Shown: piece by piece, positions 1 through 26,744 of the stretch
Position numbering within the stretch: the stretch's first letter is position 1
How the letters are laid out: the number at the start of each line of letters is the position of its first letter
Notes under the pieces: generated by a model
Database searches by the model: none
The model's input: the letters and a program-made list of their open reading frames with translations, nothing else
Told to the model about the DNA's origin: nothing
Position numbers and translations under genes: made by a program
Assembly (NCBI GenBank): GCA_014859605.1
Contig: JACUTW010000021.1
Span: forward strand, 1-34,053
Source of the DNA: Desulfuromonadales bacterium
Lineage (GTDB): Bacteria > Desulfobacterota > Desulfuromonadia > Desulfuromonadales > UBA2197
Direction of reading: 5' to 3'
Length of the DNA stretch: 34,053 nt

Positions 1-3000
1 CGCTGCTCCTCTTCTTCGCCTTGGTGCTGGGGGCGACGACATCCGTGCAGGCGGCAGGGGTTATGTGTTCGCAGTTCACATTGACAGGTGTCAATCCACT
101 GACAGGTGTTAATGCGTATGAGGTTGATGGTTATAACCCCGTTCACCGTAGTCTGATTGAATCTGCCTCCACGTTCGGGATTGATGCGAATTGCACAATA
201 AAGAATTTTCCTGAGTCTGCTGGCGGGTTTCCAATCACGACGATAAATTATCAATTCTGGGGGAACTCAACATTTTATATTGTCTTCGACAATATTTACT
301 ATCCCGGTAACATGTCGTGTAATAACCCCTCTCAAGCCACCTTTTGGATTTACTGGGCGCCCGGCGGGTATAACAAAATCAGTGCTGCCTGTCAGCAATT
401 TATGGTGCCTGTCGATGCAGTTATCAAGCAGAATCCCCCGGCCCAGACCACAGCCAGGATTGGTATTCCTTTTGTTTACACGATCAAGGCGCCGGTCATG
501 GGGAAGTTGGACGCCTCGGGAGTCTTCCAATATCTGACCAACGCTGACACCCACAATTTAGAGAATGTCGTTATTGCCGACGACCTTAGTAAGACCGGTG
601 CTGCACTTAGCTATCTGAGCAATGCCGCCTACTTGGTGAATCCGAATACCGGCACCAGGACGCAGCTAAACGAAGGTTCCCCATTAGTATTGGGGGCAAG
701 TTCTGCTTGGCTGAGCGATCACCCTGATGTTTCGTCGGATTCTACGAAACATCTTGTCTTTTCGTACGAAAATAATCCTACGGTCCTCGGTTTGATTCCG
801 GCCGGGTATAACCTCGAGATCGACCTCACAGTGGTCCTCGACTCAGATACGAGTGTGAATAAGACCGGGGTGCAATTTAGCAACATTGCTGAGATGTGGT
901 TCAATAAAACGATTAATTCTACCTACATGTCGGATCTGCACGCATGGCTCGGCACCACACTGCCAATGTCCGTCATCGAGCCCAATCTGGTGGTCGACAA
1001 GACGAGCACGGTGACGAACCTGAACCTAGGTGTGGAGGCGCCCTACAAGATCGATGTCGCGAACCTCGGCGGCGGCACGGCCTATAACGCCACGATTACC
1101 GACAATCTTCCCGCCGGCATGTGTCAGTATCCCCCTTCCACTGTTACTGCCCAAATCTTTGCTGCGGACGGTACCACCCCGGTCTCCTCCCTACTAACTC
1201 GGAATACTGACTACTCGCTCAACTGGTCCGGTCCGACTGCGTCTGCGTGTCAGCTTACCTTGACCATGCTGAACACAGCGGCAGCCAAAATCGCGCCCAC
1301 TCAGCGCTTAATCATTAACTACAAGGCCCAGCTCGACGTGGGGACCGCCTCTGGCCTGTCGTTTCCCAATGTTGCCGGCGCCACCAGTTGGTTCAATGCT
1401 GAAAGCAGCAATACCACCCGCTTCGAATATGTAAAACCACTAAACAACGGCACGCCCGGCACGTTAGATTCTCAGGACGTCTACACCGTCACCTCTGCGG
1501 TGGCCGGCTACTACTTTCTAAAATCGGTCGAGGACTTGACCACCGGCACTTCGTCGGCTACCGCGGCTTTTCCGGGTGACAAGCTGCGCTACACACTGCA
1601 GCTCCAGAACTTCACCCTTCCCGCGCTCGGCAACATAACGATCACCGACGACCTGGGACTGAACGCCGTCGGGGCCATCTGGCCGGGTTCGCTCGTTCTT
1701 GTGAGCGAGAATCTTCCTATTACTGCCATGCTGGATGTCGATCCCATTGGTGGTACAAATGGGGCCGGAGCTATTACCATCAGCGGCCTGAATCTAGGGA
1801 CAAACCAACAATACCAAATCCAGTTCGATGTCACCCTGAACTCGTCCCTCACGAGTGGCATTAACGTTTCCAACCAAGCGTTTATCTCCGGTACTGTTCT
1901 CGATGAATTCGGCAACCCCACCTCTATTAGTTATACCAATGCCCCTAGCGATGACCCGTACACTATCGGTCCGAAGCTGCTCAGTAATATAGACGTGGGT
2001 GATGTCACCAAAGTGACGATTCAGGCTCCCGGCCCGTTGGCAAAGGAAAACCCCGCTGGTAAAACAACCGTCATGATCGGTGAGCAGTTCAAGTACACCA
2101 TCAGCGTGCCTGCTGTCCCGGTTGACGTGGCCCTCTACGATGTGCAGATCAAGGATACTTTGCCCGAGAACCTGGGCTTGGTCAGCGCCACTGCCCACCT
2201 CGTTTCGGGGACGCAATCCTGGACGCTCACAAAGGTAGACGATGGCGCCGATATCATCCTGAAAGAGATGATTACCGGCCTTGATATCCCTGCCAAAGAT
2301 CAGGTGATAGTCGAGATTACAGTAGAGCTGAAGAACATCGACTTCAACACGGACGGCAAGGTCTTCAGCAACAGGGCGTCGTACCTCTACAACAAGGTCA
2401 ATGGCGTTAATACGACCGAAGGGATTGGCGGCGAGGATACGACTGACATTTTGACCGTGGTCGAGCCGGAACTGACTGTCACTAAGGCCGTGAGCTTTGT
2501 CACCCCGGCGGGGAAAACCCCGGCCGACCCAGCCATGGTCGGCGACGTCCTCAAATATACGGTCACTATTGACAACAGTGGTGGTGATTCCTTCGCATAT
2601 GACACCAATATTGTAGACACTCTGCCGTCGTCAGTTGTTCTCGTCCCCAATTCCGCCACCGCGCAGATCAATGGCACAGGGGTCACGGGTTTTGTCGTGG
2701 AGCCAACCAGTCTGACTGGCGGTGCCCTGGTCTGGGGGCGTGAGAACGGTGACGGCAATCTTGACATCCCTGCCGGAGAGTCCCTGGTGCTGACCTATCA
2801 GGTGACGGTGGTGGACACCTCCGCTGGCCCCATCACGAACAGCGTTTATGTAGATTGGACCTCGCTCGACGAAGTGCACACGGGAGAGCGCACCGGTGAA
2901 GGTTGCGGAACGACAGGTACAACGTCTCCGAATCTCTATTGCGTCGGTACAGTCTCTGCCATCCCCGTCTACACGGCTGACAACACCTTCATCACCAAAT

Positions 3001-6000
3001 CGGTTTACGCAGATTCCTACACAGACGATACCTCCACCACGCCGCATATCGTGCGCGTCGGCGACACCGTCACCTATGATCTGACGCTGAACCTGCAGGA
3101 ATACACCACCCGGAATGTCGTGGTTGTGGATGCGCTGCCCGCGGGCATGGTCTACGACACTCAGGTAAGCATCACCCCGACCTCCGGCATTAGTTCCTCT
3201 ACTACTAGCGTTCTGCCGGTGTTTGACGCTACTGACGGCACCTTGCGTTGGGAGTTCGATAACATCATCAACACGCCGAGCAACGACAATACGCCAATCG
3301 ACACCTTGGTGATCCGTTATGTCGCGAAGGTTGTGACCGATGCGCCGACCGTGGGGGTGGATTTCAACTCTTCCAATCTGCTCGTCAATACGGCGAAGCT
3401 TTCCTACCTGGGGGGTAATTCCGACAGTCTTGACCCATTGGTCCACGCCAGGCTGAACACACTGGCGACGACGATAGAGGTCCGCCAGCCGGTTATGTCC
3501 GATCTCACCAAGCTGGACTACGGCACCGGTCGCATCGGCACCGGCTCTTCAACCGATCCCTACCAGGTGGACATAGTCAACGACACCATGAAGTTCCGGT
3601 TGCAGACGTGCAACACTGCCGGCCTTGCGCCCGCCTATAATCTGCTCATCACCGATCAGCTGCCTGTGGAGCTAGCTGCGGCGCCGCTCGTCGGGTGGCC
3701 GGTGGTAAAGATTGGCGCAGGTACCAATCCGGCCACCGCCGTTCCCGTACCGAGCACGGATTACAGTTACACGCTGAGCGGCGGGCAGATGAGCTTTGCG
3801 TTCATCGATGCCCGGCCGATCAATCCGGGCGAGTGCGTGTTCGTCGAATACGATATCGGCTTCGACAATGACATCGCGCCCGATACGACTTGGAACAACA
3901 GCGCCCAGGTACAGAAGTATTACTCTCTGCCGGCGAAATCCGGTCGCGAATATGTGCCGACCGTCCCGCCCGCCACAGTCTACATGACGAACGTCCTGGC
4001 CCTGAACGTCCCGACCAAGACCATTGCCTTGCCCGTTGCGCCAACGACCACGGTGACTATTGGTGAAGAGGTGCAGTACACCATTACCGTGCCTGGCACG
4101 CCGGTCAACGCAATCCTGACCGATGTAGCCGTCAACGACATCCTCGATCCGGCGCTGGTTTACCTGAATGCAGCTGTCGCCGGCACTTTCGTTCTGACTG
4201 ACACCACGGCACCGGGTAGCCAGAACGTGAATCTCACCATCGACAGCATCCCGGCTGGCCAGCAGGCGGTAATAACGCTGCGCGCACGGGTCGCCAACGA
4301 CGCTACGACCGACGCTGGGGACGTCTTTACCAATAAGGCATCGTATACCTATAACGGGACGACCTTGGAGAGCCTGCCGACGGCTCCACTGACCATCGTC
4401 GAGCCTGCCGTCACCGTGGTCAAGAGCGTGAGCCCGCCGACACCCCCCACGGCTGGTGACATTCTGACCTACAGCGTGCAATTGACGGCGTCCGACAGCG
4501 CCAACGCCTACGATCTGGAGCTGGGGGATGAGCTGGGTGCAGGGCTTGAGTATGTTGATGGCAGTACAGGCATCGTTGGTTCCCCTGGCACCCTGAGCAC
4601 CAGCGGATCGACGCTGACCGGGACTGGCATCGTTATCCCGAAGGGGAGTACGGTTACCGTCACCTACCAGGTCCTGGTGCAGAACAGCGTCGTGGCCAGC
4701 CAGACGCTGACCAACAGCGTAATCGCCCGCTGGACCAGCCTCTCCGGCCAAAGTGACTTCGAGCGCACCGGCGCCGACGGCGTCGGCGGGCTGAACGATT
4801 ACGTAGCCACCGGCACCTTCAGCCTGACGACCCCCGCCGATGCGACCACCCTGACCAAGTCGCGCCTGCGCGACACTTACAGTGCCGACGCCAACGTCCG
4901 GGTCGGCGACTTGGTCGAATTTGAGCTGCGCCTCGGTTTGCAGGAAGGCTCGCACTTCGGACTGCTGCTGAATGACACCTTGCCCGCGGGCATGGCATTC
5001 GCGGGTATGCTTAGCGCCAATTACTTCGGTACGGCAGTGACGGCCCCTGAACCTGTACAGAGCGGTCAGACTCTGACCTGGAATCTGGGCGATGTGGTCA
5101 ATGCGACCGCCGATAACGATCCGAACAACGACTATCAGGTGATCGTCTATCGCGCCCGCGTGCTCAACAGCCTGGCGCAGGCGGACAGCACGCCACGGAC
5201 CAACACGGCGACCCTCGATTACACCCTCGGTGGCACGTCCGCCCCGCAGTTGACAGCCCGCGAGACCATCACCGTGCTGCAGCCGATGCTGACGGTGAAC
5301 AAACTCGCTGCCCCGGCCGGCGGCGCCACGGTCATTGCCGCCAACGAGGTCATCACCTATACCGTCGAGATCCAGAACAGCGGCGCGGCGCCGGCCTATG
5401 ACACCGTGCTGGTGGATACCCTGCCGGTTGGCCTGCGCCAGGGCGGAGTGACCACCACCTCCATCACACTGGTCGGCACCAGCACCAGCCGGCCGAACCT
5501 GGCTCCGGTCTACGACCCTGCCACCGGTGTGGCCACCTGGGACTTCGATTCCGGAGGTGCCGACACCTACACCATCCCGGCCGGCGAGACCCTGCGCGTG
5601 GTCTACACGGTCACCGCCGACCCGAACCTCGGTCCCGGCCTGACCCTGACCAACACCGCCCAGGTCACCCGCTATTACTCCTTCGACGACGAGGCGGTGC
5701 CAGTTAACGGCAGCGTCGGCGATCGCAAGCTCTATGGCCCGACCAACGAGGCAGAGCAGACCCTGACCACGCCGTTGCCAGGCGCGTTGCTGAAGGAGAA
5801 TCCGGCGAACGCGACGGCCACCATCGGTCAGGAGTTCACCTACACCATTACCGTACCCGCTATCCCGCAGCCGACCGCCTTGCATGATGTCCGCATTTAT
5901 GACGACCTTGCGGCAATCAACGCCGACCTGACCCTGATGGGGATCGAAAAAGTCACCGGTTCCTCGACCATCAATACCGGTACATGGACCCTCGTCAATA

Positions 6001-9000
6001 CCGGTACTCCAACCAGTCTGATCATCGAAGACACGATAACCGGCATCGAGATCCCGGCCAACGAACAGATCGTGATCGGCGTGACGGTGCGCCTGAACAA
6101 TGTCGCCAAAAACAGTGCGGGTCTGACCTTCAGCAATACCGCCTCGTACACCTACAACCAGATCGACGGCGATACCAGCACGGTGATGCAGGGAGGCAGC
6201 AGCACCACCCCCGCAATGACCGTGGTCGAGCCTTCCGTCACCGTGGTCAAGAGCGTGAGCCCGGCGACACCACCCACCGCCGGTGACATTCTGACCTACA
6301 GCGTGGAGTTGATGGCGTCCGACAGCGCCAACGCCTACGATCTTGAGTTGGTGGATGAGCTGGGTGCAGGGCTTGAGTATGTCGATGGCAGTACAGGCAT
6401 CGTTGGTTCCCCTGGCACCCTGAGCACCAGCGGATCGACGCTGACCGGGACTGGCATCGTTATCCCGAAGGGGAGTACGGTTACCGTCACCTACCAGGTC
6501 CTGGTGCAGAACAGCGTCGTGGCCAGCCAGACGCTGACCAACAGCGTAATCGCCCGCTGGACCAGCCTCTCCGGCCAAAGTGACTTCGAGCGCACCGGCG
6601 CCGACGGCGTCGGCGGGCTGAACGATTACGTAGCCACCGGCACCTTCAGCCTGACGACCCCCGCCGATGCGACCACCCTGACCAAGTCGCGCCTGCGCGA
6701 CACTTACAGTGCCGACGCCAACGTCCGGGTCGGCGACTTGGTCGAATTTGAGCTGCGCCTCGGTTTGCAGGAAGGCTCGCACTTCGGACTGCTGCTGAAT
6801 GACACCTTGCCCGCGGGCATGGCATTCGCGGGTATGCTTAGCGCCAATTACTTCGGTACGGCAGTGACGGCCCCTGAACCTGTACAGAGCGGTCAGACTC
6901 TGACCTGGAATCTGGGCGATGTGGTCAATGCGACCGCCGATAACGATCCGAACAACGACTATCAGGTGATCGTCTATCGCGCCCGCGTGCTCAACAGCCT
7001 GGCGCAGGCGGACAGCACGCCACGGACCAACACGGCGACCCTCGATTACACCCTCGGTGGCACGTCCGCCCCGCAGTTGACAGCCCGCGAGACCATCACC
7101 GTGCTGCAGCCGATGCTGACGGTGAACAAACTCGCTGCCCCGGCCGGCGGCGCCACGGTCATTGCCGCCAACGAGGTCATCACCTATACCGTCGAGATCC
7201 AGAACAGCGGCGCGGCGCCGGCCTATGACACCGTGCTGGTGGATACCCTGCCGGTTGGCCTGCGCCAGGGCGGAGTGACCACCACCTCCATCACACTGGT
7301 CGGCACCAGCACCAGCCGGCCGAACCTGGCTCCGGTCTACGACCCTGCCACCGGTGTGGCCACCTGGGACTTCGATTCCGGAGGTGCCGACACCTACACC
7401 ATCCCGGCCGGCGAGACCCTGCGCGTGGTCTACACGGTCACCGCCGACCCGAACCTCGGTCCCGGCCTGACCCTGACCAACACCGCCCAGGTCACCCGCT
7501 ATTACTCCTTCGACGACGAGGCGGTGCCAGTTAACGGCAGCGTCGGCGATCGCAAGCTCTATGGCCCGACCAACGAGGCAGAGCAGACCCTGACCACGCC
7601 GTTGCCAGGCGCGTTGCTGAAGGAGAATCCGGCGAACGCGACGGCCACCATCGGTCAGGAGTTCACCTACACCATTACCGTACCCGCTATCCCGCAGCCG
7701 ACCGCCTTGCATGATGTCCGCATTTATGACGACCTTGCGGCAATCAACGCCGACCTGACCCTGATGGGGATCGAAAAAGTCACCGGTTCCTCGACCATCA
7801 ATACCGGTACATGGACCCTCGTCAATACCGGTACTCCAACCAGTCTGATCATCGAAGACACGATAACCGGCATCGAGATCCCGGCCAACGAACAGATCGT
7901 GATCGGCGTGACGGTGCGCCTGAACAATGTCGCCAAAAACAGTGCGGGTCTGACCTTCAGCAATACCGCCTCGTACACCTACAACCAGATCGACGGCAAT
8001 CCCAGCACGGTGATGGATGGGGGCAGTAGCACCACCCCCTTGATGACTGTGGTCGAGCCGTCCGTCACGGTGGCAAAGAGCGTCAGCCCGATGACACCAC
8101 CGACTGCGGGCGACATTTTGACCTACAGCGTGCAATTGACGGGTACCTACACCTCGAGCGCCTACGATCTGGTGTTGGTGGGTGATCTGGGCTCGGGGCT
8201 TGAGTACGTTGCTAACAGCACAATCATCGTTGGTTCCTCTGGCACTCAGAGTACTAGCGGATCGACGCTGACCTGGGCTGGTATCGACATTCCAAAGGGA
8301 GGCACGGTCACCGTCACCTACCAGGTGCTGGTACAGAACAGTGTCGTGGCTAACCAGACACTGACCAACAGCGTGACCGCCCGCTGGACCAGTCTTGCCG
8401 GCCTAAGCGATTACGAGCGCACCGGCGCCGACGGCATTGACGGACTAAATAATTATTTCGCCGAAGCCGCCGCGCCGCCGCTCACGGTACCAATCCCGAC
8501 CCTGACCTTACAGAAAATTGTAACCAAGCTCTCCGGGACGACGGAGGTAACCGCGGCGACCGCGAACCCCGGCGATCGCTTGCGCTACACTCTCACCATT
8601 CAAAATCCGACGGCTATTCAGCTGGTCAATTTCTCCCTGCTCGATCTCCTTGAGCGTTTGCATGCAACACCGATGTTCCAGCCGGGAACAATCGTGCTTG
8701 ATCCCGCTCTGCCGCTGCCGACCGGAGCCACTGCTGTAATCGGTGCTGACACCCTGAGCATCACCGGCCTGAATATCGCCCCGAACGAGACTCTGACGAT
8801 CGCCTTCGAAACTCTCCTCAGGACGGATCTCAAGAGCGGCACCGTCGTCTTGAACCAGGCGGAGCTGCAGGGCCCCTGGCCGGCGCCGATCAAGAGCGAC
8901 GACCCGAATGTGCCGGGCGCTGAAAACCCGACGCAGACTGTCATCCCGGCGAATGGTGTTGTCTACGATGCGGAGGAGCGCAAGCCGTTGGCGGGAATGA

Positions 9001-10404: not shown

Positions 10405-10430
10405 GGGAATGCCCTTTTCCTCTTACATAG

Positions 10431-15563: not shown

Positions 15564-15604
15564 ATGTTTTTTATTCAACAACACACTCACAACAGGTGGC
15601 AGCC

Positions 15605-16138: not shown

Positions 16139-16140
16139 TC

Positions 16141-18030
16141 ATGTCCAGATTCCTTCTCTTGCTGGCTTCCCTGTTGTTCGTAGCGCCTGCGCTGGCGGCC
16201 AGCACAGCTACGCCAAAAGACCTGAAGGATCTCTATTTCGGAGAGGCCCTCTATTACGCCTACCAGGAGGACTGGTTCGAGGCCATTGCCCGGCTCGACA
16301 CTGAACTCGGGCAGTATCGCGGCCTTGATGAGCCTGCTCTCAATACCCTTTTCTTTCATGTCGATCAGGCCGAGTTTGATGTCGGGGACTTTGAACTGGC
16401 TTATCGGATGCACTACAAGGCCGGTCGGGCGATTACTGCGGTCATTGAGGGGAATGTCGAGGAGTCGATACGTAACGAGGCTATTTTCCGCCTGGCCAGG
16501 ATCTACTTCCAGAAAGACCAGCCGGAAAATGCCTTGCGGACCGTCGAGCGGATTCGCGGCGCTGTTCCGGCCAGGATTCGCGAGGATCTGGCGTTCTTGC
16601 GTGCCCACATTGATATGGCCAATGGTCGTAATGTCGAGGCCATTCGCATCCTGAAAGACCTGCAAGGCGAAAAAAAACTGCAAGGATTCAGTTCCTATAA
16701 TCTCGGGATCGCCCTGCTGCGCAACGGCAACGAGCAGAACGGCCGGGAGTATCTCGATCGGACCGGCCAGCTCCTCAGTGAAATCCCGTCCACCTTGGCG
16801 ATCAAGGACAAATCGAATCTGGTTTTGGGCTACAAACTGCTGGAAGAGAAGAAGCACGAGGGGGCCAAGCTGGTCCTTGATCGGGTGCGTTTAACCGGTC
16901 CGTTTTCGAATCGGGCCCTGCTCGGCTCGGGTTGGGCCGACGCTTTTGAGGGGAACTTCGAGAGGGCACTGGTCCCCTGGAGTGTGCTGGTAACACGCGA
17001 AGTGACTGATCCGGCGGTGCAGGAAGCCTTGCTGGCGGTGCCGTATGCCTATGGAAAACTCAATGTCCATGGTCGGGCGGCGTTGCTCTATGGCAATGCT
17101 CTGGAAGCCTTCGGCGCTGAAATCGACAAGCTCACCGCCTCGATCAAGAGTATCCGGGAAGGAAACTTTCTGCGTGCGCTGGTGCGGGAAGAACTGAAGC
17201 AGGATGCCAACTGGGTGGTCAAGTTGCGGGAACTGCCGGATACCCCCGAGACCTACTACCTCCTCGAATTGATGGCCTCGCACGATTTCCAGGAATCCTT
17301 CAAGAACTACTTTGACCTGGAGGCGTTACTGAAAAAGCTGTCGGCCTGGCAGGGTGCCCTTGATGCTTACGAGGATCTGATCCAGCAACGCCGCGCTTAT
17401 TACCAGCCCCTCCTCCCGGAAATCGACCGCGAATTCCGGCTTTTGGACTCGCAGATGCGGCTGCGGCTGGAGCAGCGGGACCGGATCGAACAACGCCTGC
17501 AGAACATGCTGGTCGCGCCGCGTCCCGATTATCTGGCCACGGCCGGGGAGCGGATCATCAGCGAGCAACTGGCGCAACTGGAGCAGCGGCTCCTCGCCAG
17601 CAATGCCGTTATTTCCCCCGAAATCCGCGACCGGATCAAGCGACTGCGGGGGGTGCTGCACTGGAACATCCATACGGAATATGACCAACGTTTTACCGAT
17701 GCGCACAAGAATCTTCGCGAGCTGAACCATGAGGTGGATTTGCTCAATCGGCAGTATACCTCCTTTGTCCGCACCCGTCAGGCCGCCACCCAGAGCTATG
17801 AAGGATATGACGAGATGATCCGCCGCCAGCGCCTGCAGATTGAGACCGCCCTGGAAAAAACGCGCGTGCTGATGGCGCGGCAGGGGCACATGCTTGAGAT
17901 TATGGCGGTGAATGAACTCAGCAAACGCCGTGACCGCCTGGATGAATTCCAGGTCAAGGCGCGTTTTGCCTTGGCGGATAGCTACGATCGGGCCAGTAAG
18001 GCTCAAATCCAGAAGAGTGCCGAACAATGA
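16141..18030 (+). CDS. Periplasmic TPR-repeat protein with C-terminal coiled coil
   Basis: This is a 629-residue protein. ATG 16141 is chosen over the in-frame TTG at 16132 because it begins a clean signal peptide (MSRFLLLLASLLFVAPALA, cut after ALA). Residues about 30-300 form TPR-like helix pairs (for example EALYYAYQEDWFEAIARLD and FRLARIYFQKDQPENALRTV). Residues about 430-629 are long, charged and coiled-coil-like (RLRLEQRDRIEQRLQNM; LRELNHEVDLLNRQY). No enzyme motif is visible. It starts 2 bases after the preceding stop and overlaps the next gene by ATGA. TPR proteins of this type scaffold trans-envelope complexes; here it probably links outer-membrane and inner-membrane parts of the system. 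The family assignment is to the fold only. Confidence 0.88.
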   Translation: MSRFLLLLASLLFVAPALAASTATPKDLKDLYFGEALYYAYQEDWFEAIARLDTELGQYRGLDEPALNTLFFHVDQAEFDVGDFELAYRMHYKAGRAITAVIEGNVEESIRNEAIFRLARIYFQKDQPENALRTVERIRGAVPARIREDLAFLRAHIDMANGRNVEAIRILKDLQGEKKLQGFSSYNLGIALLRNGNEQNGREYLDRTGQLLSEIPSTLAIKDKSNLVLGYKLLEEKKHEGAKLVLDRVRLTGPFSNRALLGSGWADAFEGNFERALVPWSVLVTREVTDPAVQEALLAVPYAYGKLNVHGRAALLYGNALEAFGAEIDKLTASIKSIREGNFLRALVREELKQDANWVVKLRELPDTPETYYLLELMASHDFQESFKNYFDLEALLKKLSAWQGALDAYEDLIQQRRAYYQPLLPEIDREFRLLDSQMRLRLEQRDRIEQRLQNMLVAPRPDYLATAGERIISEQLAQLEQRLLASNAVISPEIRDRIKRLRGVLHWNIHTEYDQRFTDAHKNLRELNHEVDLLNRQYTSFVRTRQAATQSYEGYDEMIRRQRLQIETALEKTRVLMARQGHMLEIMAVNELSKRRDRLDEFQVKARFALADSYDRASKAQIQKSAEQ

Positions 18031-21000
18031 GAAGATCGAATTGGCTGTGCTGGAGTGCCCTCGCGCTACCGCTGCTCCTGAGCGCCTGTCAGTCGGGGAG
18101 CAGCAAGGACACGATTGCCAAGCTGCGGCACATGCACATCGAAATCAAGGAAGAAAAGATCGAAGGCGGTCTCGAAAAAGCCATGGAAGGATACCGGCGT
18201 TTTCTCGAAGAGACGCCGGCCTCGGCTATGACGCCAGAGGCGATTCGGCGCCTGGCTGACCTGAAGGTCGAAAGGGAATATGGTCTCCTTTCCGGCGCGA
18301 CCGTGGCCGAGCGCCGGGCCACCGCCACGGCTTTGCCGCCTCCGGAAAAGGCTGCCCGCCCGGTGGGGCCGCCGGCTTCCTCGGTTCCGGCGCTGGCGAC
18401 TGAACCGGTGACAGGTGAATCGACGGCCGATTTCGAGAAAAGGACAGCGCAGAGCCAGTTGCCAGGGCCGGCGACGGAAGGCGCTGGTGATGATGCGGAT
18501 GACCTGGAGCGGGTCGGGACGGTCGAGGCCATCGAGCTCTACAAGAAGCTGCTGAACGATTATCCCGAATACGCGCGCAACGATCAGGTGCTGTATCAGA
18601 TGTCCCGCGCCTATGAAGAACTCGGCCGGGTCGAAGAGGCCATGGAGGTCATGAACCGGTTGGTGCAAGACTACCCCCGGTCCCGTTATATCGATGAAGT
18701 GCAGTTCCGCCGCGCCGAATATTTCTTCACCCGCCGGCGTTATCTCGATGCTGAGGAGGCCTACGGCAGCATCGTCACCATCGGTGTTACCTCCTCCTAT
18801 TATCAACTCGCCCTCTACAAGCTTGGTTGGACCTTTTACAAGCAGGAACTCTACGACGAGGCCTTGCACCGTTTCATCGCCCTGCTCGATTACAAGGTGT
18901 CGGTGGGCTACGACTTTGCTCAGACCGCGGACGAACCGGAACGTAAACGTGTCGATGATACCTTCCGGATCATCAGTCTGAGTTTTTCCAACCTCGGCGG
19001 TGCCGACTCGGTGGTCGAGTACTTCAACCTCCACGGCAAGCGCAGTTACGAGGACGGCGTCTACAGCAACCTCGGGGAATTTTACTTCGACAAGCGCCGC
19101 TACAGTGACGCCGCTGCCACCTACAACGCCTTTGTCAGCCGCAATCCGTTTCACAAGGTGGCGCCGCAATTTGCCATGCGGGTGATCGAAATTCATCTCG
19201 CCGGGGCCTTCCCCAGCCTGGTCATCGATGCGAAAAAACAATTTGCCACCAACTACGGACTCAAGGCTGAATACTGGCAGCATTTCGAACCGAGCACCCG
19301 TCCGGAAGTGCTGGCCTGGCTGAAAACGAACCTCACCGACCTGGCCAATCATTATCACGCGCTGTATCAGAGTCCGCAGCAGATCAAGGATAAAAAGACC
19401 AACTTCGGTGAAGCGCTGCACTGGTATCGGGAATTCCTCACCTCCTTCCCGATGGATCCGGAGTCGCCGGCGATTAATTATATGTTGGCAGACCTCTTTC
19501 TGGAAAATCGCTCTTTTGATCTGGCGGCGGTGGAATACGAGAAGACCGCTTATGACTACCCGCGCCACGAGAAGTCTGCGCAGGCCGGCTACGCGGCAAT
19601 TTTCGCCTATCGCGAACACCTCGCCGGAGTTGCCGTGGCGGCGAAGGATCAGGTGAAGCGGGAAGTGGTACGAAGTTCGCTGAAGTTTGCCGACACCTAT
19701 CCGGAGCATGAAAAGGCGGCGATGATTCTGGGGGCAGCGGCGGATGATCTCTACGACCTGCAGGATTACGAGCCGGCGGTGGCCGTAGCCCGCAAGCTTA
19801 TCGAAGTCTTCCCCGGCGCCGAAGTGGGGATCCTGCGCGCCGCTTGGCTGGTGGTTGGTCACTCCACCTACGAACTGCTGCGTTACAACGAGGCAGAAAT
19901 CGCTTACAGTAATGTGTTGACGCTCCTCCCGGCCGGGGATAAAACCCGCGAGGCTCTGACCGATAATCTTGCGGCGTCGATCTACAAGCAAGGTGAACAG
20001 GCGAATGCCCTGGAGGATTATCGGGCCGCCGCCGAGCATTTTTTGCGGGTGGGACGCATGGCCCCGACCTCCAAGATCAGGGTAACCGCGGAGTACGATG
20101 CCGCTGTTGCCCTGATGCAGCTCACGGACTGGAAGCAGGCAGCAATCGTGCTCCTGGGCTTCCGCGACCTCTTCCCCGGTCATGCCCTGCAGCCGGAGGT
20201 GACCAGGAAGATCGCTTTTGTCTATCGTGAGGACGGTCTGTTTGCCCTGGCGGCCGATGAATATGAGCGCGTTGAAAGGGAGTCCCGCGATGACGAGGTC
20301 CGGCGGGGAGCGCTGTTGATCGCGGCGGAATTGCATGACAAAGCCGGCAACAGGGACCGCACCCTGGTGGTCTATCGCCGTTATGTCGGTTATTTTCCGC
20401 AACCTTTGGAGATCAACCTTGAAATCCGCGACAAAATCGCCGACCTCCTCAAGGAGAAGGACGACCAGAAAGGTTACCTGAAAGAACTCGGCGAGATTGT
20501 CGCCCTCGATGCGGCCGCCGGCCGCGCCCGGACCGCCCGGACCCGTTTCCTTGGCGGCAAGGCGGCGCTGGTGCTGACGGAACCGAAATATGCCAGCTTT
20601 GCGGAAGTCCGGCTGGCCAAACCCTTTGACGTTAATTTGCGCAAGAAGCGCGAGCTGATGAAGGCTGCCACGCAGGCATTCACTAAACTTCTCGATTATG
20701 AAATCGGCGAAGTGACGGCGGCGGCGACGTTCTATCTCGCCGAGATTTACGCCCACTTCTGCAAGGCATTGCTCGAATCGGAGCGGCCGGATGGCTTGTC
20801 GCCCCTGGAGCTGGAACAGTACGAGTTGGCTATCGAAGAGCAGGCCTATCCCTTTGAGGATAAAGCTATCGAAGTGCACGAGAAGAACCTTGAACTGCTG
20901 ACCGTCGGTATCTATAACGTCTGGATCGACAAGAGTCTGGAGAAGTTGGCTGTGTCTGTCCCCGCACGCTACGCCAAGCCGGAAGAACCGAGCGCGATTC

Positions 21001-21200
21001 TCGCTTCCTTAAGCGTCTTCACTTACGAGATCGAGAGGCCGGTCATTGCGCCGCCCGAGCCCGAAGTGCAGGACCCGGATTCGTCAGAGGCCGAGGCGGT
21101 GGCGGTGGCGGGCGTAGAAGCGGTAGAAGCCGTCGGGGTCGTGGAGAGCGCCGAGGAACTGCCGGTTGCAGCTCTTCGACCGGAGACGGCTCCGAAGTGA
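18027..21200 (+). CDS. Large TPR-repeat lipoprotein
   Basis: This is a 1057-residue protein. The N-terminus has a lipoprotein signal, LPLLLSAC, with the acylated Cys at residue 21 followed by Gln, which normally means sorting to the outer membrane. After a low-complexity Ala/Pro/Glu linker (about 90-160), many TPR/BamD-like repeats run from about 170 to 960 (VEAIELYKKLLNDYPEYARN; YQMSRAYEELGRVEEAMEVM; FRRAEYFFTRRRYLDAEEAY). The last 50 residues are an acidic Ala/Val/Glu tail with short repeats (VEAVEAVGVVE). ATG 18027 overlaps the previous TGA by 4 bases. Architecture recalls large TPR lipoproteins of gliding or export machines such as Myxococcus GltE/AglT, although much longer; that comparison is by architecture only. 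Confidence 0.88.
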   Translation: MRRSNWLCWSALALPLLLSACQSGSSKDTIAKLRHMHIEIKEEKIEGGLEKAMEGYRRFLEETPASAMTPEAIRRLADLKVEREYGLLSGATVAERRATATALPPPEKAARPVGPPASSVPALATEPVTGESTADFEKRTAQSQLPGPATEGAGDDADDLERVGTVEAIELYKKLLNDYPEYARNDQVLYQMSRAYEELGRVEEAMEVMNRLVQDYPRSRYIDEVQFRRAEYFFTRRRYLDAEEAYGSIVTIGVTSSYYQLALYKLGWTFYKQELYDEALHRFIALLDYKVSVGYDFAQTADEPERKRVDDTFRIISLSFSNLGGADSVVEYFNLHGKRSYEDGVYSNLGEFYFDKRRYSDAAATYNAFVSRNPFHKVAPQFAMRVIEIHLAGAFPSLVIDAKKQFATNYGLKAEYWQHFEPSTRPEVLAWLKTNLTDLANHYHALYQSPQQIKDKKTNFGEALHWYREFLTSFPMDPESPAINYMLADLFLENRSFDLAAVEYEKTAYDYPRHEKSAQAGYAAIFAYREHLAGVAVAAKDQVKREVVRSSLKFADTYPEHEKAAMILGAAADDLYDLQDYEPAVAVARKLIEVFPGAEVGILRAAWLVVGHSTYELLRYNEAEIAYSNVLTLLPAGDKTREALTDNLAASIYKQGEQANALEDYRAAAEHFLRVGRMAPTSKIRVTAEYDAAVALMQLTDWKQAAIVLLGFRDLFPGHALQPEVTRKIAFVYREDGLFALAADEYERVERESRDDEVRRGALLIAAELHDKAGNRDRTLVVYRRYVGYFPQPLEINLEIRDKIADLLKEKDDQKGYLKELGEIVALDAAAGRARTARTRFLGGKAALVLTEPKYASFAEVRLAKPFDVNLRKKRELMKAATQAFTKLLDYEIGEVTAAATFYLAEIYAHFCKALLESERPDGLSPLELEQYELAIEEQAYPFEDKAIEVHEKNLELLTVGIYNVWIDKSLEKLAVSVPARYAKPEEPSAILASLSVFTYEIERPVIAPPEPEVQDPDSSEAEAVAVAGVEAVEAVGVVESAEELPVAALRPETAPK

Positions 21201-21251
21201 CCGCGTGGAAACATATTGATTTTTTGATTGTAAAGGGAAGGCGGTGCTGTC

Positions 21252-21950
21252 ATGCAAAAAACTGATAAACAACGGAGGCCGGGCCCTTGCGCCCGAAGCC
21301 GCGCCCTCTTCGCCGCCGTAACCATGGGGTTGGGATTTCTGGCGGGGTGCACAACCGGAGCCAAGGTGCCGACGCCGGTAATTGTCGAAGCCGCGCCCCC
21401 CGTGGTGGAGGAGGTCACCACAATAGCGCGCCTCGGTGATGGGCGGGAAGGGTTTGTCATCCAGGAGGTCCCTGGCTCCGATAGTGAGTCGGCCAATGAT
21501 TTTGAGCGGGCCGTGGTCATGATGCAAGCGGGAGATTATGCCAGCGCCAGTACCGTGTTGGAGAAAGTGATCGAGCGCACCCCCGGCGTGACGGCCCCTT
21601 ACATCAATCTGGCGATAGCTTGCAGGCATAACGGCAAGCCGGAGCTGGCCGAGCAGCATCTGCAAAAAGCTCTGGAGTTGATTCCGGCGCACCCGGTGGC
21701 GAGCAATGAATACGGCTTGCTGCTGCGCAAAGCCGGGCGCTTTGCCGAAGCCCGGGGGATCTATGAAAAGACCCTGTTGACTTTTCCCGACTATAGCCCG
21801 GCGCACAAAAATCTCGGGATTCTCTGTGACATTTACATGAAAGATCTGGCGTGTGCCCTCGAACATTACGAAAGCTATAGCGAGGCCGTACCAAAGGATG
21901 AGCAGGTCAAACTCTGGGTTGCCGATCTGCGCGTCCGGCTCGGCCGTTAA
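21252..21950 (+). CDS. TPR-repeat lipoprotein
   Basis: This is a 232-residue protein. The lipobox is LGFLAGC, with the acyl-Cys at residue 33 after a long basic N-region (QRRPGPCARSR). A Pro/Val/Glu linker leads to TPR units from about residue 75 (FERAVVMMQAGDYASASTVL; PYINLAIACRHNGKPELAEQ; EYGLLLRKAGRFAEARGIYE), ending with LGR. GGAAGG lies about 10 bases before ATG 21252. It is 51 bases after the larger TPR lipoprotein and in the same direction. It is likely an outer-membrane pilotin-like or scaffold subunit of the same complex; no specific family is recognised. Confidence 0.87.
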   Translation: MQKTDKQRRPGPCARSRALFAAVTMGLGFLAGCTTGAKVPTPVIVEAAPPVVEEVTTIARLGDGREGFVIQEVPGSDSESANDFERAVVMMQAGDYASASTVLEKVIERTPGVTAPYINLAIACRHNGKPELAEQHLQKALELIPAHPVASNEYGLLLRKAGRFAEARGIYEKTLLTFPDYSPAHKNLGILCDIYMKDLACALEHYESYSEAVPKDEQVKLWVADLRVRLGR

Positions 21951-21999
21951 AGCGAGCGCTGCACATTTGGGTAAACGTGGATCAGCCAAGGGAGTTTAT

Positions 22000-22323
22000 A
22001 TGTATCGAATTTTTGTCCTCATCCTTTGCCTGATGCTCTTTCCTGCTCTAACGGTCAGGGCGGAGGGGGAGAAGGCCGATGAGCCGGTCGAGAAGTCTGA
22101 GAAGTCTGATGATGCCAAGATGGTTTCGGGCATGTCCATCGTCGGCAATGATGAAGCCCCGAAAGCCTTGTATATTGTTCCCTGGAAAAGCTCGGAAATC
22201 GGGGCGGAGACAAATCTGAGCATGATGTTAACTGAAAACGCCATGCCGGTAGATCGCGATGTGTTTATGCGGCAATTGGATTTTTTCGAGGTGAGTACGG
22301 CGTACACAAAGAAGGAGCATTGA
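22000..22323 (+). CDS. Small secreted protein of unknown function, upstream of ExbB
   Basis: This is a 107-residue protein. The frame is open further upstream (to 21853, inside the previous gene), but ATG 22000 has AAGGGAG 5 bases before it and begins a signal peptide (FVLILCLMLFPALTVRA). The mature part is short: a charged Glu/Lys/Asp segment and then a compact motif, SGMSIVGNDEAPKALYIVPW, with KSSEIG after it. The tail contains MPVDRDVFMRQLDFFEV. I do not recognise a named family. The placement just before the motor genes suggests a periplasmic adaptor or regulator of the motor. The gene is real on start, signal and context; the function is unknown. Confidence 0.82.
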   Translation: MYRIFVLILCLMLFPALTVRAEGEKADEPVEKSEKSDDAKMVSGMSIVGNDEAPKALYIVPWKSSEIGAETNLSMMLTENAMPVDRDVFMRQLDFFEVSTAYTKKEH

Positions 22324-22391
22324 TGCAGTTTTTCTAGTAGGGGTACTTTAAAGGATTAAGTTTCAGCTTGCCGGATATCGGAGGATTACTG

Positions 22392-23042
22392 ATGGGTTTC
22401 ATTTATGGCGTACTAGGTTTCTTTAAGAATGGCGGTTTGTTTATGTACCCCATTCTCTTTGTCTTTGCGATGGGGGCGGCGATCGCATATGAACGCTGGG
22501 TCCAGCTAAACCGCACCCGAATCAAAAATGAAAATATGTGGAATTCGCTGCAACCGGTGCTGGCCGGGGGAAAATTTGACAATGCCCGGGAACTGGTGAA
22601 CAACGATGACTCGACTCTCGCGCAAATGCTGGGCATGGGTCTGGCGTTACAGGGCGCGGTGCGCCGCCGGGAAGAGATCGAAATTGCCATGGAGGAGAGC
22701 TTGATGGAGATCGTCCCGCAGTTGGAAAAGCGCACCTCCTATGTGGCGCTGCTCTCGAACATTGCCACCCTGCTCGGCTTGCTCGGCACCATTATGGGGC
22801 TGATCGAGGCCTTTACGGCGGTCGCCAACGCCAATCCCGCCGAGAAAGCCGACCTGTTGTCCGCCAGCATCTCGGTGGCCATGAACACCACGGCTTTCGG
22901 GCTGATCGCCGCGATTCCCTTGCTGATAGTCCATGCCGTTCTGACGACGACCACGGCCCAGATCGTCGACAATCTCGAAATGGTCTCGGTAAAGACCCTG
23001 AACATTATCTCCCATTGTGCCAAGCGAGCAGACCATGGCTAA
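22392..23042 (+). CDS. ExbB/TolQ/MotA-family proton channel subunit (copy 1)
   Basis: This is a 216-residue protein. ATG 22392 has GGAGG 7 bases upstream, so the longer TTG reading from 22368 is rejected. It has the ExbB/TolQ layout: TM1 near residues 17-36 (MYPILFVFAMGAAIAYERW), a cytoplasmic loop with the EIAMEESLMEIVPQLEKR segment, TM2 (YVALLSNIATLLGLLGTIMG) and TM3 (TAFGLIAAIPLLIVHAVL), with the conserved A-x-x-T-x-x-G-L-x-x-A-I-P pattern. These proteins form pentameric stators that use proton flow to work on periplasmic partners. The gene overlaps the following exbD-type gene by 8 bases. No long N-terminal extension of the TtpC type is present. Confidence 0.95.
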   Translation: MGFIYGVLGFFKNGGLFMYPILFVFAMGAAIAYERWVQLNRTRIKNENMWNSLQPVLAGGKFDNARELVNNDDSTLAQMLGMGLALQGAVRRREEIEIAMEESLMEIVPQLEKRTSYVALLSNIATLLGLLGTIMGLIEAFTAVANANPAEKADLLSASISVAMNTTAFGLIAAIPLLIVHAVLTTTTAQIVDNLEMVSVKTLNIISHCAKRADHG

Positions 23043-23514
23043 AAAACAGAGAAAACAACACGAGCCCCCGGAGCTGGACATCACCACCTTCCTGAATTTA
23101 ATGGTGGTATTGATCCCCTTTCTACTCATCAGCGCGGTCTTTTCGCGCATAACGATCATGGAGCTGAGTGTGCCGATCGGTGCGGGCGGTGCGTCCAATA
23201 AGCCGAATTTCACCATCGAAGTGATCATCCGCAATCTAGGTCTGGAGATTGCCGATGGCTCCTCGGTCGTCGCGGCTATTCCGAAAAAAGGTGATCAGCA
23301 CGACATGAAAAAGCTCTCCGAGCTGCTTGTCCGTCTGAAGGCGCAATATCCGGAGAAGGAGGATGCGACAGTCTTGATGGAGCCGAAGATCGAATACGAT
23401 TATCTGATTCAGGTCATGGATGCCGTACGCAGTGCTGAAATACGGTCACCTGGGAGCGGTGCTACGCAGAATATGGTCCTCTTCCCCAATATATCCATTG
23501 GAGATGCGCCATGA
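23035..23514 (+). CDS. ExbD/TolR-family protein with Asn at the conserved TM Asp
   Basis: This is a 159-residue protein. ATG 23035 is preferred over GTG 23017. It has a single N-terminal membrane segment (about 18-38) and a periplasmic domain ending in a typical ExbD pattern (TVLMEPKIEYDYLIQVMDAV). In the family the membrane segment opens with a motif like VTPFID, whose Asp carries protons. Here the aligned stretch is ITTFLN, so Asn21 (codon 23095-23097) stands in for the Asp. There is an Asp at residue 17, just before the membrane segment. It overlaps both neighbours (8 bases and ATGA). It is probably a non-translocating partner of the next ExbD protein; that role is inference. Confidence 0.9.
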   Translation: MAKKQRKQHEPPELDITTFLNLMVVLIPFLLISAVFSRITIMELSVPIGAGGASNKPNFTIEVIIRNLGLEIADGSSVVAAIPKKGDQHDMKKLSELLVRLKAQYPEKEDATVLMEPKIEYDYLIQVMDAVRSAEIRSPGSGATQNMVLFPNISIGDAP

Positions 23515-24008
23515 ACGATAGTCGACGCATGAAACGGATGGGGCGGAACAGGAAAAAGGCGCCCGGCTTGAATCTGACCTCGCTCATGGATGTCTTTACC
23601 ATTCTGGTCTTTTTCCTGCTCTTTAACTCCGGCTCCAGCGAAGTGCTGGAGGCGCCTAAACAGATCAAGCTGCCCAACTCCGCGGTCGAGGCTAAACCGC
23701 GGGAACAGACGGTCGTGATCATGATCAGTCATGACGTTATTCTGGTACAGGGCGAAGCGGTGATCAGTACCGCCGAACTGACTAATACCAAGGGTGACCT
23801 GATTGGACCAATCACCGAGCGGCTCAAACAGCTCGAACGCAGTATTATCGGCGGAAGCACCCAGACGGTCGTGGAAAGCAAGGAAGTCACCATCCTTGCC
23901 GATAAAACGATTCCCTTCAGCGTGATCAAAAAGGTCATGTCCTCTTGCACGAATTCCGGATACGGGAAGATCTCTCTCGCCGTTATCCAGCAAGCAGCGA
24001 AGAGCTGA
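23511..24008 (+). CDS. ExbD/TolR-family protein with intact TM Asp
   Basis: This is a 165-residue protein. ATG 23511 overlaps the previous TGA (ATGA), with GGAG 7 bases upstream. A basic N-terminus (MKRMGRNRKK) precedes the membrane segment LTSLMDVFTILVFFLLFNSG. Asp27 (codon 23589-23591) occupies the conserved proton-relay position of ExbD/TolR. The periplasmic part (about 45-165) has the family's beta-alpha pattern and ends with IPFSVIKKVMSSCTNSGYGK. With the adjacent ExbB and the other ExbD it would form a PMF-driven stator like AglR-AglQ-AglS or ExbB-ExbD. Confidence 0.93.
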   Translation: MNDSRRMKRMGRNRKKAPGLNLTSLMDVFTILVFFLLFNSGSSEVLEAPKQIKLPNSAVEAKPREQTVVIMISHDVILVQGEAVISTAELTNTKGDLIGPITERLKQLERSIIGGSTQTVVESKEVTILADKTIPFSVIKKVMSSCTNSGYGKISLAVIQQAAKS

Positions 24009-24009
24009 T

Positions 24010-25425
24010 ATGAGTGCCGCAAAGACTTCCTTGGCCGCTGAATTGGCGCCACTCCAGACGCAGATCGAGCAGACACGGGGAGAAATCCGGCTGCTCGAAG
24101 GTGAACTGCGGACTGTATTGACAGAAAATGAATCGTTTTCAGCAGATAAACAACGCTTCGACGCACTGCGCGACGTTTGCACCGCCCTCGATGCCTTGGG
24201 TAATTTGGGAGCATCTCGGCTATTTTGGGAAGAATTGCTCGACGAAGACACCCTTGTTGCAGATCATCTGGGCCGGCTGCGGGGTTATATTTCCGAGTTT
24301 GAAGAGGAGATACGCGGCACCCAGGAAAAACACGCATCGCTCAAGGCACAGATCAACAAACGTCAGCATGATTTGAACTTCCTGGATGAAGAGGTCCGAC
24401 AGGCGCATGCCCGTGAGGAGCGCCGCAATGACGAGCTTCTCATTGAGCGAAAGGCCTCACCCATCCCCTATCGCTCCATGGTCATGCCCTGGAATAACCA
24501 GGGCGAGGTGGAAAAGCGCTTTCGTCTAGCCTTGCTGGTCGCTTTGTTGTTCTGCATCAGTTTTGGTACGGTCATCCCGCTGTGGAAACTGCCGGTACGG
24601 GATCGCTCGGCCGTGGTCGTGGTTCCGGAACGTCTGGCCATGCTGGTGAAAAAAGAGCAGCCGAAACCGGAGAAGTTGCCGGAACGCCCCAAAGAAGAAA
24701 AGAAGCCCGAGAAAGAGCAGGACAAAGTAGCGGAGCAGCCGAAGGAAGACCGGCCGAAGTCGCCCGCAACGACGGTCGAAACACAGAATGCGCGTAAAAA
24801 AGCAGAGAGTACCGGGGTTCTGGCCTTTAAGGAGGCCTTTAGCGATCTGATGGAAGAGACCCCGGTTGCGCGGCTCGGTCTCGAGTCCAATGTCAGCGCC
24901 CAGAGCGGGGCGGCAGGTCAGGCCCAGGCCAGTCGCTCCATGGTTGCCATGCAGTCCTCGGGTGGCGGCGGTTCCAGTGGTGGTATCAGCAATTCCGCCG
25001 TCAGTCGCAATATCGGCACCGGGGGCGGCGGCGGGGGTAACCGTCTTGGCGGTGTGGCTTTTGCCCGCGTCGAGAGCACCGTTGCCGGGCTGAAGGAAGA
25101 GGCGCGGCCGCTGACAACCGGGACTGGTCCGGCCCGAACCGACGAAGAGATTCAGATTGTCTTCGACAAATACAAGGCGACGCTTTATCGGATCTACAAT
25201 ACCGAATTGCGCAAGAATCCGACCCTGCGCGGAAAGATTATCCTGCGCATTACCATCGAGCCTGGTGGTGAGGTCTCTGCCTGTTCGGTGCAGTCGAGCG
25301 ATCTCGCTTCACCGGAGTTGGTAGCCCAGATTGTGGAGCGCGTCAAGAAAATCAACTTCGGGCCGAAGGAGAAGGTTCCCAGGACCACCATTATGTACCC
25401 GATAGATTTCCTGCCGGCCGGCTAG
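24010..25425 (+). CDS. TonB-like energy transducer with AgmX/PglI-type C-terminal domain
   Basis: This is a 471-residue protein. A 171-residue N-terminal part is predicted to be cytoplasmic and rich in coiled coil (LQTQIEQTRGEIRLLEGELR; later HASLKAQINKRQHDLNFLDE). One membrane segment follows (about 172-193, LALLVALLFCISFGTVIPLW). Next comes a Lys/Pro/Glu-rich, TonB-like extended linker (about 210-255) and a Gly/Ser-rich stretch. The C-terminal domain (about 385-471) has the AgmX/PglI TonB-like pattern (LYRIYNTELRKNPTLRGKI; LRITIEPGGEVSACSV; INFG...). That domain family includes Myxococcus gliding proteins (GltG/GltJ) that carry motor force across the periplasm. It starts 1 base after the exbD stop. 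The large cytoplasmic N-terminus is unusual for plain TonB. Confidence 0.88.
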   Translation: MSAAKTSLAAELAPLQTQIEQTRGEIRLLEGELRTVLTENESFSADKQRFDALRDVCTALDALGNLGASRLFWEELLDEDTLVADHLGRLRGYISEFEEEIRGTQEKHASLKAQINKRQHDLNFLDEEVRQAHAREERRNDELLIERKASPIPYRSMVMPWNNQGEVEKRFRLALLVALLFCISFGTVIPLWKLPVRDRSAVVVVPERLAMLVKKEQPKPEKLPERPKEEKKPEKEQDKVAEQPKEDRPKSPATTVETQNARKKAESTGVLAFKEAFSDLMEETPVARLGLESNVSAQSGAAGQAQASRSMVAMQSSGGGGSSGGISNSAVSRNIGTGGGGGGNRLGGVAFARVESTVAGLKEEARPLTTGTGPARTDEEIQIVFDKYKATLYRIYNTELRKNPTLRGKIILRITIEPGGEVSACSVQSSDLASPELVAQIVERVKKINFGPKEKVPRTTIMYPIDFLPAG

Positions 25426-25501
25426 ACGGCCGCTGTTGGCGGGATTTTCCCTGATAGTTACTAACTGGCGATAAAAACAAAACAAATTCAGGAGGTTGAA
25501 A

Positions 25502-26128
25502 ATGATTGCATTTTTCTTTAACGGCGGGGCGTTCATGTGGCCCATTCTACTGGTATTCGTCATTGGCATGAGTATCGCCGCAGAACGCTGGTATCATTTG
25601 ACCCGCACCAAGATCGGGAGCCGTAACATGTGGAATCAGCTGCATCCGGTGCTGGTGGATGGTGAGTATGGCAAGGCCCGGGAAATGGTCGAGAAGGATA
25701 GTTCTGCGCTGGCAAAAATGTTGAGCATGGGGCTGATGGTTCAAGCCGCGGGCCGGCGGCGGCAAGACATGGAAATTGCCATGGAAGAGAGCATGATGGA
25801 GATCCTCCCGGATCTGGAAAAACGGACACCTTATGTAGCGCTCTTCTCCAATATTGCCACCCTGCTCGGGCTGCTCGGTACCATCATGGGACTGATCGAA
25901 GCGTTTACCGCCGTCGCCAATGCCAACCCCGCCGAAAAAGCCGACCTGTTGTCTGCCAGTATTTCGGTCGCCATGAACACCACGGCTTTTGGTCTGATCG
26001 CCGCGATTCCGCTGTTGATCATCCATGCCATGCTGACCACCACGACCGCTCAGATCGTCGACAGCCTTGAGATGGCTTCGGTGAAGGCATTGAATATCAT
26101 CACCAATGCCGCGAGGCGGGCTGACTGA
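25502..26128 (+). CDS. ExbB/TolQ/MotA-family proton channel subunit (copy 2)
   Basis: This is a 208-residue protein. ATG 25502 has a strong AGGAGG 6 bases upstream, so the TTG at 25496 is rejected. It has the same three-TM layout as the copy at 22392. Over the TM2-loop-TM3 core I count 84 of 90 residues identical between the two, while the N-terminal third and the cytoplasmic loop differ more. It lies 76 bases after the TonB-like gene and 64 bases before the Pal-like gene, in an order like the end of a tol-pal operon. It could form a second stator or a mixed ExbB ring with copy 1. Confidence 0.95.
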   Translation: MIAFFFNGGAFMWPILLVFVIGMSIAAERWYHLTRTKIGSRNMWNQLHPVLVDGEYGKAREMVEKDSSALAKMLSMGLMVQAAGRRRQDMEIAMEESMMEILPDLEKRTPYVALFSNIATLLGLLGTIMGLIEAFTAVANANPAEKADLLSASISVAMNTTAFGLIAAIPLLIIHAMLTTTTAQIVDSLEMASVKALNIITNAARRAD

Positions 26129-26192
26129 TCTTGATTGAGCAGTCGGTTCGGAAAGGTACATTAACCGCAAACCTGCATCCAAGGAGAATTAC

Positions 26193-26744
26193 ATGTTTCG
26201 ACAAGGACTCATCTTTTGTTTAGCCGCCACTTTGCTTTTTAACGCGGGATGCGCGACGACCAAGGCTCCGGAAGAAGCAGCGATCACTCCGCCACCGATC
26301 CAGAGCGAGGCGCCCCCCGCAGTGGCGGATCAGGGGAGCACGGACAACGCTGTCGTCGCCGCGCCGGAAGTCGTGGCCGAACCAGTGGTCGCGACACCGG
26401 TGGAACCGCTGCCGGTGCTGCAGAGTGTCCCCTTCGAGTATGATCAGCATCTGCTGACTGCCGCGGCCCGGGAGATTCTCGGCGCGAACGTTGCGATCCT
26501 CAAGGCGCAAAGTCAATTGCGGGTCACCCTCGCGGGCTATTGCGACGAGCGTGGAGCGGACCAGTACAACATTGCGTTGGGCGAACGCCGGGCCGAGTCG
26601 GTACGCAACTACCTCCTTTCCCGCGGGATCAGCGCAGGGCGTCTGGAAGCCGTTTCGTATGGTGAGGAAAAACCCCTCGATCCGGGGCACGATGAGGACG
26701 CCTGGGCCAAGAACCGGCGCGTCGAATTTGACCCGCAGTCCTGA
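26193..26744 (+). CDS. Pal-like OmpA-domain lipoprotein
   Basis: This is a 183-residue protein. AAGGAG lies 6 bases before the ATG. The lipobox LLFNAGC puts the acyl-Cys at residue 20. An Ala/Pro/Val/Glu linker leads to an OmpA/Pal domain (about 78-183) with the Pal signature GYCDERGADQYNIALGERRA and the ending WAKNRRVEF. Asp118 and the Arg of GERRA are the peptidoglycan-binding residues of the family. It anchors the outer membrane to peptidoglycan. Being last in this motor cluster, it is likely the dedicated Pal of this system rather than the general tol-pal copy, since no tolB is present; I cannot exclude that it is the cell's only Pal. Confidence 0.93.
   Translation: MFRQGLIFCLAATLLFNAGCATTKAPEEAAITPPPIQSEAPPAVADQGSTDNAVVAAPEVVAEPVVATPVEPLPVLQSVPFEYDQHLLTAAAREILGANVAILKAQSQLRVTLAGYCDERGADQYNIALGERRAESVRNYLLSRGISAGRLEAVSYGEEKPLDPGHDEDAWAKNRRVEFDPQS

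Follow-up and report, generated by a model that had tools for sequence, protein, structure and literature searches.

An eleven-gene block in which a Glt-type envelope complex adjoins the genes for a giant adhesin-like protein and a very large outer-membrane barrel occupies positions 1–25425 of the window, a single whole contig of 34,053 bp (JACUTW010000021.1) from a 2.76-Mb Desulfuromonadales assembly in 153 contigs. By sequence comparison, nine of these genes, g3–g11, are a Glt-type core complex as described by Luciano et al. (2011), and the coupling of core, giant and barrel as one system is well supported. We lean toward a reading in which the block encodes a Glt-type trans-envelope machine with the giant adhesin g1 as its own surface load. 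The nearest named kin on a tree of the barrel protein is Desulfuromonadaceae bacterium UBA5613 (82% identical).

The block runs in the order giant, triple-OmpA barrel, g3, TPR protein, GltD homolog, GltE-like lipoprotein, g7, ExbB, ExbD, ExbD and GltG-like transducer (Table 1). A first-pass annotation of this DNA had described a cluster of thirteen co-directional genes, and all thirteen are found, all on the forward strand. Its parts list also holds, comprising two ExbB (PF01618) and two ExbD (PF02472) stators with a TonB/AgmX-type transducer bearing an N-terminal coiled-coil arm; one Sec-exported TPR protein plus a pair of TPR lipoproteins and two small secreted proteins that match no known family; and a Pal-like lipoprotein, a three-OmpA protein with a long β-barrel domain and a giant DUF11 protein. 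The proposed extent, however, was too wide, as the conserved unit comprises only eleven of the thirteen genes. Order-level relatives with sufficiently long contigs keep the order g1–g11, the exception being G033, where g3–g11 are present and g1–g2 do not adjoin them. We rejected g12 and g13 as core members; comparison of gene content identifies them as genus-specific additions, confined to the genus of this bacterium, although a second ExbB occurs independently in G019. From g14 onward no conservation was found among the relatives compared, and a tRNA scan of the window found none. Near the contig end, at 33972–34026, the 9-bp unit GGGCCAGGA is present in six perfect copies.

Table 1. Genes of the conserved block (g1–g11) and the two genes that follow it, in window coordinates
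Gene	Product	Coordinates	Strand	Features
g1	Giant fibrillar adhesin-like protein	3..10388	+	3461 aa; signal peptide, DUF11/CLIPPER stalk, C-terminal anchor
g2	Outer-membrane protein	10431..15563	+	Three OmpA domains (PF00691, N-terminal ~540 aa) and very large β-barrel domain (about residues 800–1710)
g3	Small secreted protein, family-less	15596..16138	+	Signal peptide; first core gene; same position in core loci
g4	Sec-exported TPR protein, at GltC position	16132..18030	+	Identity 45–84% within the order; gammaproteobacterial strict clade E<1e-200
g5	Large TPR lipoprotein, GltD homolog	18027..21200	+	Lipobox LSAC; hhalign versus Myxococcota GltD
g6	TPR lipoprotein, GltE-like	21252..21950	+	Lipobox LAGC; profile match between gltD and gltG in Myxococcota
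g7	Small secreted protein, family-less	22000..22323	+	Signal peptide; conserved position
g8	ExbB/TolQ-type stator	22368..23042	+	PF01618 E 7.6e-25; likely start ATG 22392
g9	ExbD/TolR-type stator 1	23017..23514	+	PF02472 E 1.5e-12; Asn at canonical proton-carrier Asp position
g10	ExbD/TolR-type stator 2	23511..24008	+	PF02472 E 1.5e-14; canonical Asp retained
g11	GltG-like transducer	24010..25425	+	Coiled coil (cytoplasmic), one TM helix, Pro-rich linker, AgmX/PglI-type C-terminal domain
g12	Second ExbB, g8-like	25496..26128	+	PF01618 E 1.2e-24; own genus, separately G019
g13	Pal-like lipoprotein	26193..26744	+	TIGR02802 124.6 bits; own genus only

The signal peptide and tandem stalk of g1 are the features that define CLIPPER fibrillar adhesins. 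The gene lacks its first codons at the contig end and is nearly complete (about 3,461 aa), since the open frame begins inside the signal peptide. Pfam places DUF11 in 13 stretches (PF01345, E 5e-69), and the isopeptide domain TIGR04226 is matched in 14 (316 bits). DUF11 was renamed CLIPPER after crystallography revealed an intramolecular isopeptide bond stabilizing adhesin stalks (PMC12617251); by analogy, the g1 stalk may be fit for mechanical load. From its domain type, g1 is predicted to lie at the cell surface. Homologs range from 1,875 to 4,379 aa, with a variable stalk, and their last ∼480 residues are 60%–69% identical within the order and 51%–74% across phyla. In g1 this C-terminal anchor (about 8943–10385) comprises an SdrD_B-like region and a terminal α-β domain. 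A confident AF2 model of the C-terminal 481 residues (pLDDT 86.2) consists of pilin/CLIPPER-like Ig domains ending in an α-β domain (two helices, three strands). A close domain match is 9ifr, a CLIPPER domain (TMt 0.78; Z 12.7 over 121 residues), and integrin and pilin domains match as well. Within g1, at 4387–8435, a 1,827-bp unit is tandemly duplicated; the copies share 95.8% identity over 2,223 bp, and a third, partial copy is 82.6% identical. This duplication is either a recent extension of the stalk or an effect of assembly.

The AF2 model of the g2 barrel region (residues 560–1710, 1,151 aa) is of moderate confidence (pLDDT 71.6, pTM 0.59) and contains, by count, ∼36–39 long strands, arranged as one huge barrel or two. 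TonB receptors have 22 strands and ushers 24. In a structural search, model residues 242–805 resembled an usher and 815–1151 TonB receptors and MtrB, and because the two halves match different barrels, the model is compatible with either arrangement. The search found no specific structural kin. Its matches, weak throughout with a TM below 0.35, were large barrels of a generic kind: TonB receptors, usher, LptD, SprA and MtrB, with no specificity for SprA. A profile search of genome contigs with the barrel alignment gave 280 relatives, the best 80 of which include Geomonas, Geotalea, Microbulbifer, Alkalilimnicola, Thiohalomonas and Gallionellales. Four loci labeled Zixiibacteriota, Alphaproteobacteria, Acidobacteria and Parcubacteria (L047, L049, L050 and L063) fall inside the Desulfuromonadota barrel clade and are probably mis-binned contigs. 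A widespread family of ∼2,000-aa proteins (G003, G004, G013:C10, G014, G024, G031, G038, G039 and others) matches only part of the barrel profile (about 240–580), and is probably a fused paralog family.

The core contains one ExbB and two ExbD-type stators, corresponding to AglR, AglQ and AglS, together with relatives of GltG, GltD and GltE, all of them components of Glt/Nfs-type cores. The g5 profile aligns with Myxococcota GltD over 795 columns (hhalign prob 100, E 6e-49; control g5 versus GltC, prob 24). In Myxococcota, the g6 profile picks up genes situated between gltD and gltG, with E values down to 1e-19, a similarity to which general TPR resemblance may contribute. All 19 transducer members examined match the GltG model, below its equivalog cut-off. 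For g11 itself the score is 57 bits against GltG (NF033760, likewise under the equivalog cut-off) and 64.8 bits against NF033768 (cut-off 40). The g4 profile, by comparison, aligns with GltC over 238 columns at prob 66, no better than its control against GltD (prob 74), and is thus not separable from general TPR similarity. In Myxococcota glt loci, which have the order gltC-D-E-G, the g5, g6 and g11 profiles find gltD, gltE and gltG in the matching order. These results bear out the earlier proposal that the cluster is closer to Glt/Nfs machines than to TonB receptor systems. No candidate for GltA, B, F, H, I, J or K was found in the window with Pfam and NCBIfam, and there is no PF00498 (FHA) match at the g11 N terminus, which instead forms a coiled-coil arm of ∼165 residues ahead of the single TM helix.

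The two ExbD proteins differ at the canonical proton-carrier position, where g9 has Asn and g10 Asp in all 22 aligned members of each (window 23017–24008; also read at L055, L057, L062 and L112). The motor axle here thus likely has one protonatable subunit, as judged from the alignments. The Geobacteraceae version, whose stator set is more distant, has Asp in both ExbD proteins, and both AglQ and AglS of M. xanthus are described with the Asp (PMC9389320), so an axle of this composition is not essential to this kind of machine. Only three MotA/TolQ/ExbB members were detected in the genome, the two ExbB described here and tolQ, and thus no flagellar MotA was found. The tolQ gene belongs to what reads as an ordinary tolQ-tolR-tolA-tolB-pal-ybgF operon on another contig (G000 C75, L207:7937–12771).

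Linkage of the giant, the barrel and the core supports their inclusion in one system, as the first-pass annotation had suggested. The giant C terminus lies directly upstream of the barrel at 62 of the 63 loci with room for it. Among 58 genomes of the order, 14 carry both a full-length barrel and g4, one carries g4 only (G033), one the barrel only (G036) and 42 neither (Fisher p 2e-11, uncorrected for kinship). Six of the 185 Gammaproteobacteria sampled carry the strict core, and these are exactly the six that carry the full-length barrel protein of ∼1,700 aa; a shorter barrel protein of ∼1,250–1,420 aa is found, with no strict core, in three more. Most of the 43 barrel carriers searched genome-wide have a strong core, with g4 at E below 1e-200. 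Within 10 kb of the barrel the core appears mainly in Desulfuromonadota-type loci, and the absence of motor genes from this flank had suggested Gammaproteobacteria without a core; we rejected this when the whole-genome search found the core some 14–31 kb upstream of the barrel.

The gammaproteobacterial arrangement is g3–g11, giant, barrel, with the core on the same strand as the barrel where both lie on one contig. In Desulfuromonadota the core is downstream of the giant-barrel pair, and the linkage has therefore outlived rearrangement. On the barrel tree the arrangement changes twice, at the Desulfuromonadota clade and at one Nitrospirota-labeled contig, and partial linkage is also seen in Nitrospirota-, Acidobacteriota- and Myxococcota-labeled loci. 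Two loci read in part, L115 and L120, show apparent further arrangements. In Microbulbifer (L070/L071 and L076/L077) the giant-barrel pair is tandemly duplicated, with about 16 kb between the copies and one strong core next to them.

Regular separation of the motor genes from the DUF11/OmpA genes had been named as the observation that would count against a single system, and here the outcome is divided. The orthologous clade keeps them linked, but divergent relatives carry each part alone. A divergent core is present in about 25 further genomes of the 185 Gammaproteobacteria, and the loci read have the same g3–g11 order with no adhesin-barrel adjoining. Divergent adhesin-barrels are in turn fused in one protein, comprising stalk, SdrD_B, OmpA and barrel, in G022 (3,303 aa), G181, G226, G171, G228, G245, G201 and G212, and in several genomes with such a fusion no core was detected. 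The modules are therefore separable, and neither strictly needs the other. The stalks of the fused proteins may use other repeats (Big_9, cadherin-like, Calx-beta), while the anchor-OmpA-barrel end is constant, and from these fusions we argue that anchor and barrel work as a unit. In G212 (L190:663–20000, L191:1–15993) the fusion occupies one open reading frame of 11,777 aa, with a DUF11/Big_9 stalk, OmpA and a g2-type barrel.

In the model that we favor, g8–g10 would form a proton-driven ExbB/ExbD motor acting on g11, which would span the periplasm as transducer. The TPR protein g4 and the lipoproteins g5 and g6 would contact one another and pass force to the outer membrane, where g2, gripping peptidoglycan through its OmpA domains, would hold its very large barrel. 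The barrel is predicted to retain the conserved C-terminal anchor of g1, so that the isopeptide-type CLIPPER stalk projects outward from the cell. Motor energy may then pull, move or tighten the exposed adhesin against surfaces, with a possible role in adhesion or motility.

The main rival to force on the adhesin is a motor that energizes export or assembly, with the giant threaded N terminus first through the g2 barrel until its C-terminal anchor stops there, as in PMF-driven type IX secretion with SprA. The unusual predicted size of the barrel (∼36–39 strands in the model), the one-to-one pairing of giant and barrel, the anchor-barrel fusion in relatives and the presence of an usher and SprA among the loose structural neighbors all fit such a role. 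However, adhesin-barrel pairs or fusions with no detected core (G036, G022, G245, G265 and G166) argue that export may not need this motor, and the structural matches are weak and not specific to SprA; we regard powered export as rather doubtful. The modules that exist apart in divergent relatives might also suggest two unrelated operons traveling together by chance. Linkage kept in two arrangements and, in part, across differently labeled phyla, together with the strict co-occurrence, makes this very unlikely.

Two further readings start from Tol-Pal and from TonB import. Four OmpA/Pal-type domains and TolQ/TolR-like stators would suit a Tol-Pal-like tether that clamps the outer membrane to peptidoglycan, with the giant as a passive surface layer or fiber, but the genome has a tol-pal operon of its own, the Pal-like gene falls outside the conserved unit, and TolA and TolB are absent from the window, so that we consider a tether unlikely. 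A TonB-type importer with g2 as its receptor could draw on the ExbB/ExbD/TonB-like parts and on the C-terminal half of the g2 barrel, which resembles TonB-dependent receptors as do most large barrels. Yet g2 contains no plug, the genome encodes only one weak plug-domain protein, and the g11 tail is of AgmX/GltG type and scores below the TonB cut-off; import is highly improbable. The lack of a receptor plug, TolA and TolB in the window agrees with the initial description. With a tol-pal operon elsewhere in the genome and almost no plug receptors, both of these readings are disfavored.

Among the closest known systems is the stand-alone Glt core (GltC, D, E, G and AglRQS), described by Luciano et al. 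(2011; PMC3169522) from Geobacter and Gammaproteobacteria as a machine of unknown function; Wartel et al. (2013; PMC3858216) later suggested that it could be a basal transport machinery. The clusters described here are likely those counted in these two papers, which include Geobacter. The published and present cores have seven matching genes in one cluster with extra small genes, including a GltD homolog, a GltE-like protein, a GltG tail and one ExbB with two ExbD, and both have a patchy spread that suggests transfer. Unlike the published core, the present one has a giant CLIPPER adhesin and a triple-OmpA barrel as linked partners, its GltG-like protein has a coiled coil in place of FHA, and one ExbD has Asn for Asp. 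In the literature searched, the main texts of PMC3169522 and PMC3858216 name no adhesin or barrel partner, and no earlier description of the giant-barrel-core cluster was found; a figure such as Luciano Fig. S1 may nonetheless picture the neighbors without remark. The giant adhesin and barrel thus seem to be new as partners of a Glt core. For fifteen years the stand-alone core has been described without an assigned function. Should the adhesin and barrel prove to be its load, the question would become directly testable in cultured carriers such as Microbulbifer and Geomonas.

The Agl-Glt gliding and Agl-Nfs spore-coat machines of M. xanthus share the motor type, the GltD/E/G homology and the C-D-E-G order, and Glt/Nfs machines move surface cargo (PMC3858216). 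Their outer-membrane proteins and surface partner are different. CLIPPER fibrillar adhesins resemble g1 in their long Sec-exported stalk of isopeptide-type Ig domains (PMC12617251); unlike them, g1 would be anchored in a dedicated OmpA-barrel partner beside a motor operon. In Fibrobacter succinogenes, FSU_2396–2403 (OmpA, TPR, TPR, ExbB, ExbD, ExbD, TonB) is upregulated on cellulose and has a similar order of parts, as far as the published gene list allows comparison (PMC6851124). Type IX secretion and SprB gliding in Flavobacterium are alike in working only, with a PMF motor, a TPR lipoprotein, an OmpA protein, a large barrel and a giant surface adhesin; no T9SS homolog scored above cut-off (PorW/SprE, 36.9 bits versus 250). 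We tentatively raise the possibility of a new class of energized-adhesin machine, independent of Bacteroidota SprB/type IX, in which a Glt-type proton motor would drive a giant, covalently stabilized adhesin through or along a barrel of ∼36–39 predicted strands in members of Desulfuromonadota and Gammaproteobacteria for which gliding is not known. If so, it would add a second, unrelated lineage to the few machines that couple a proton-driven motor to a giant surface adhesin.
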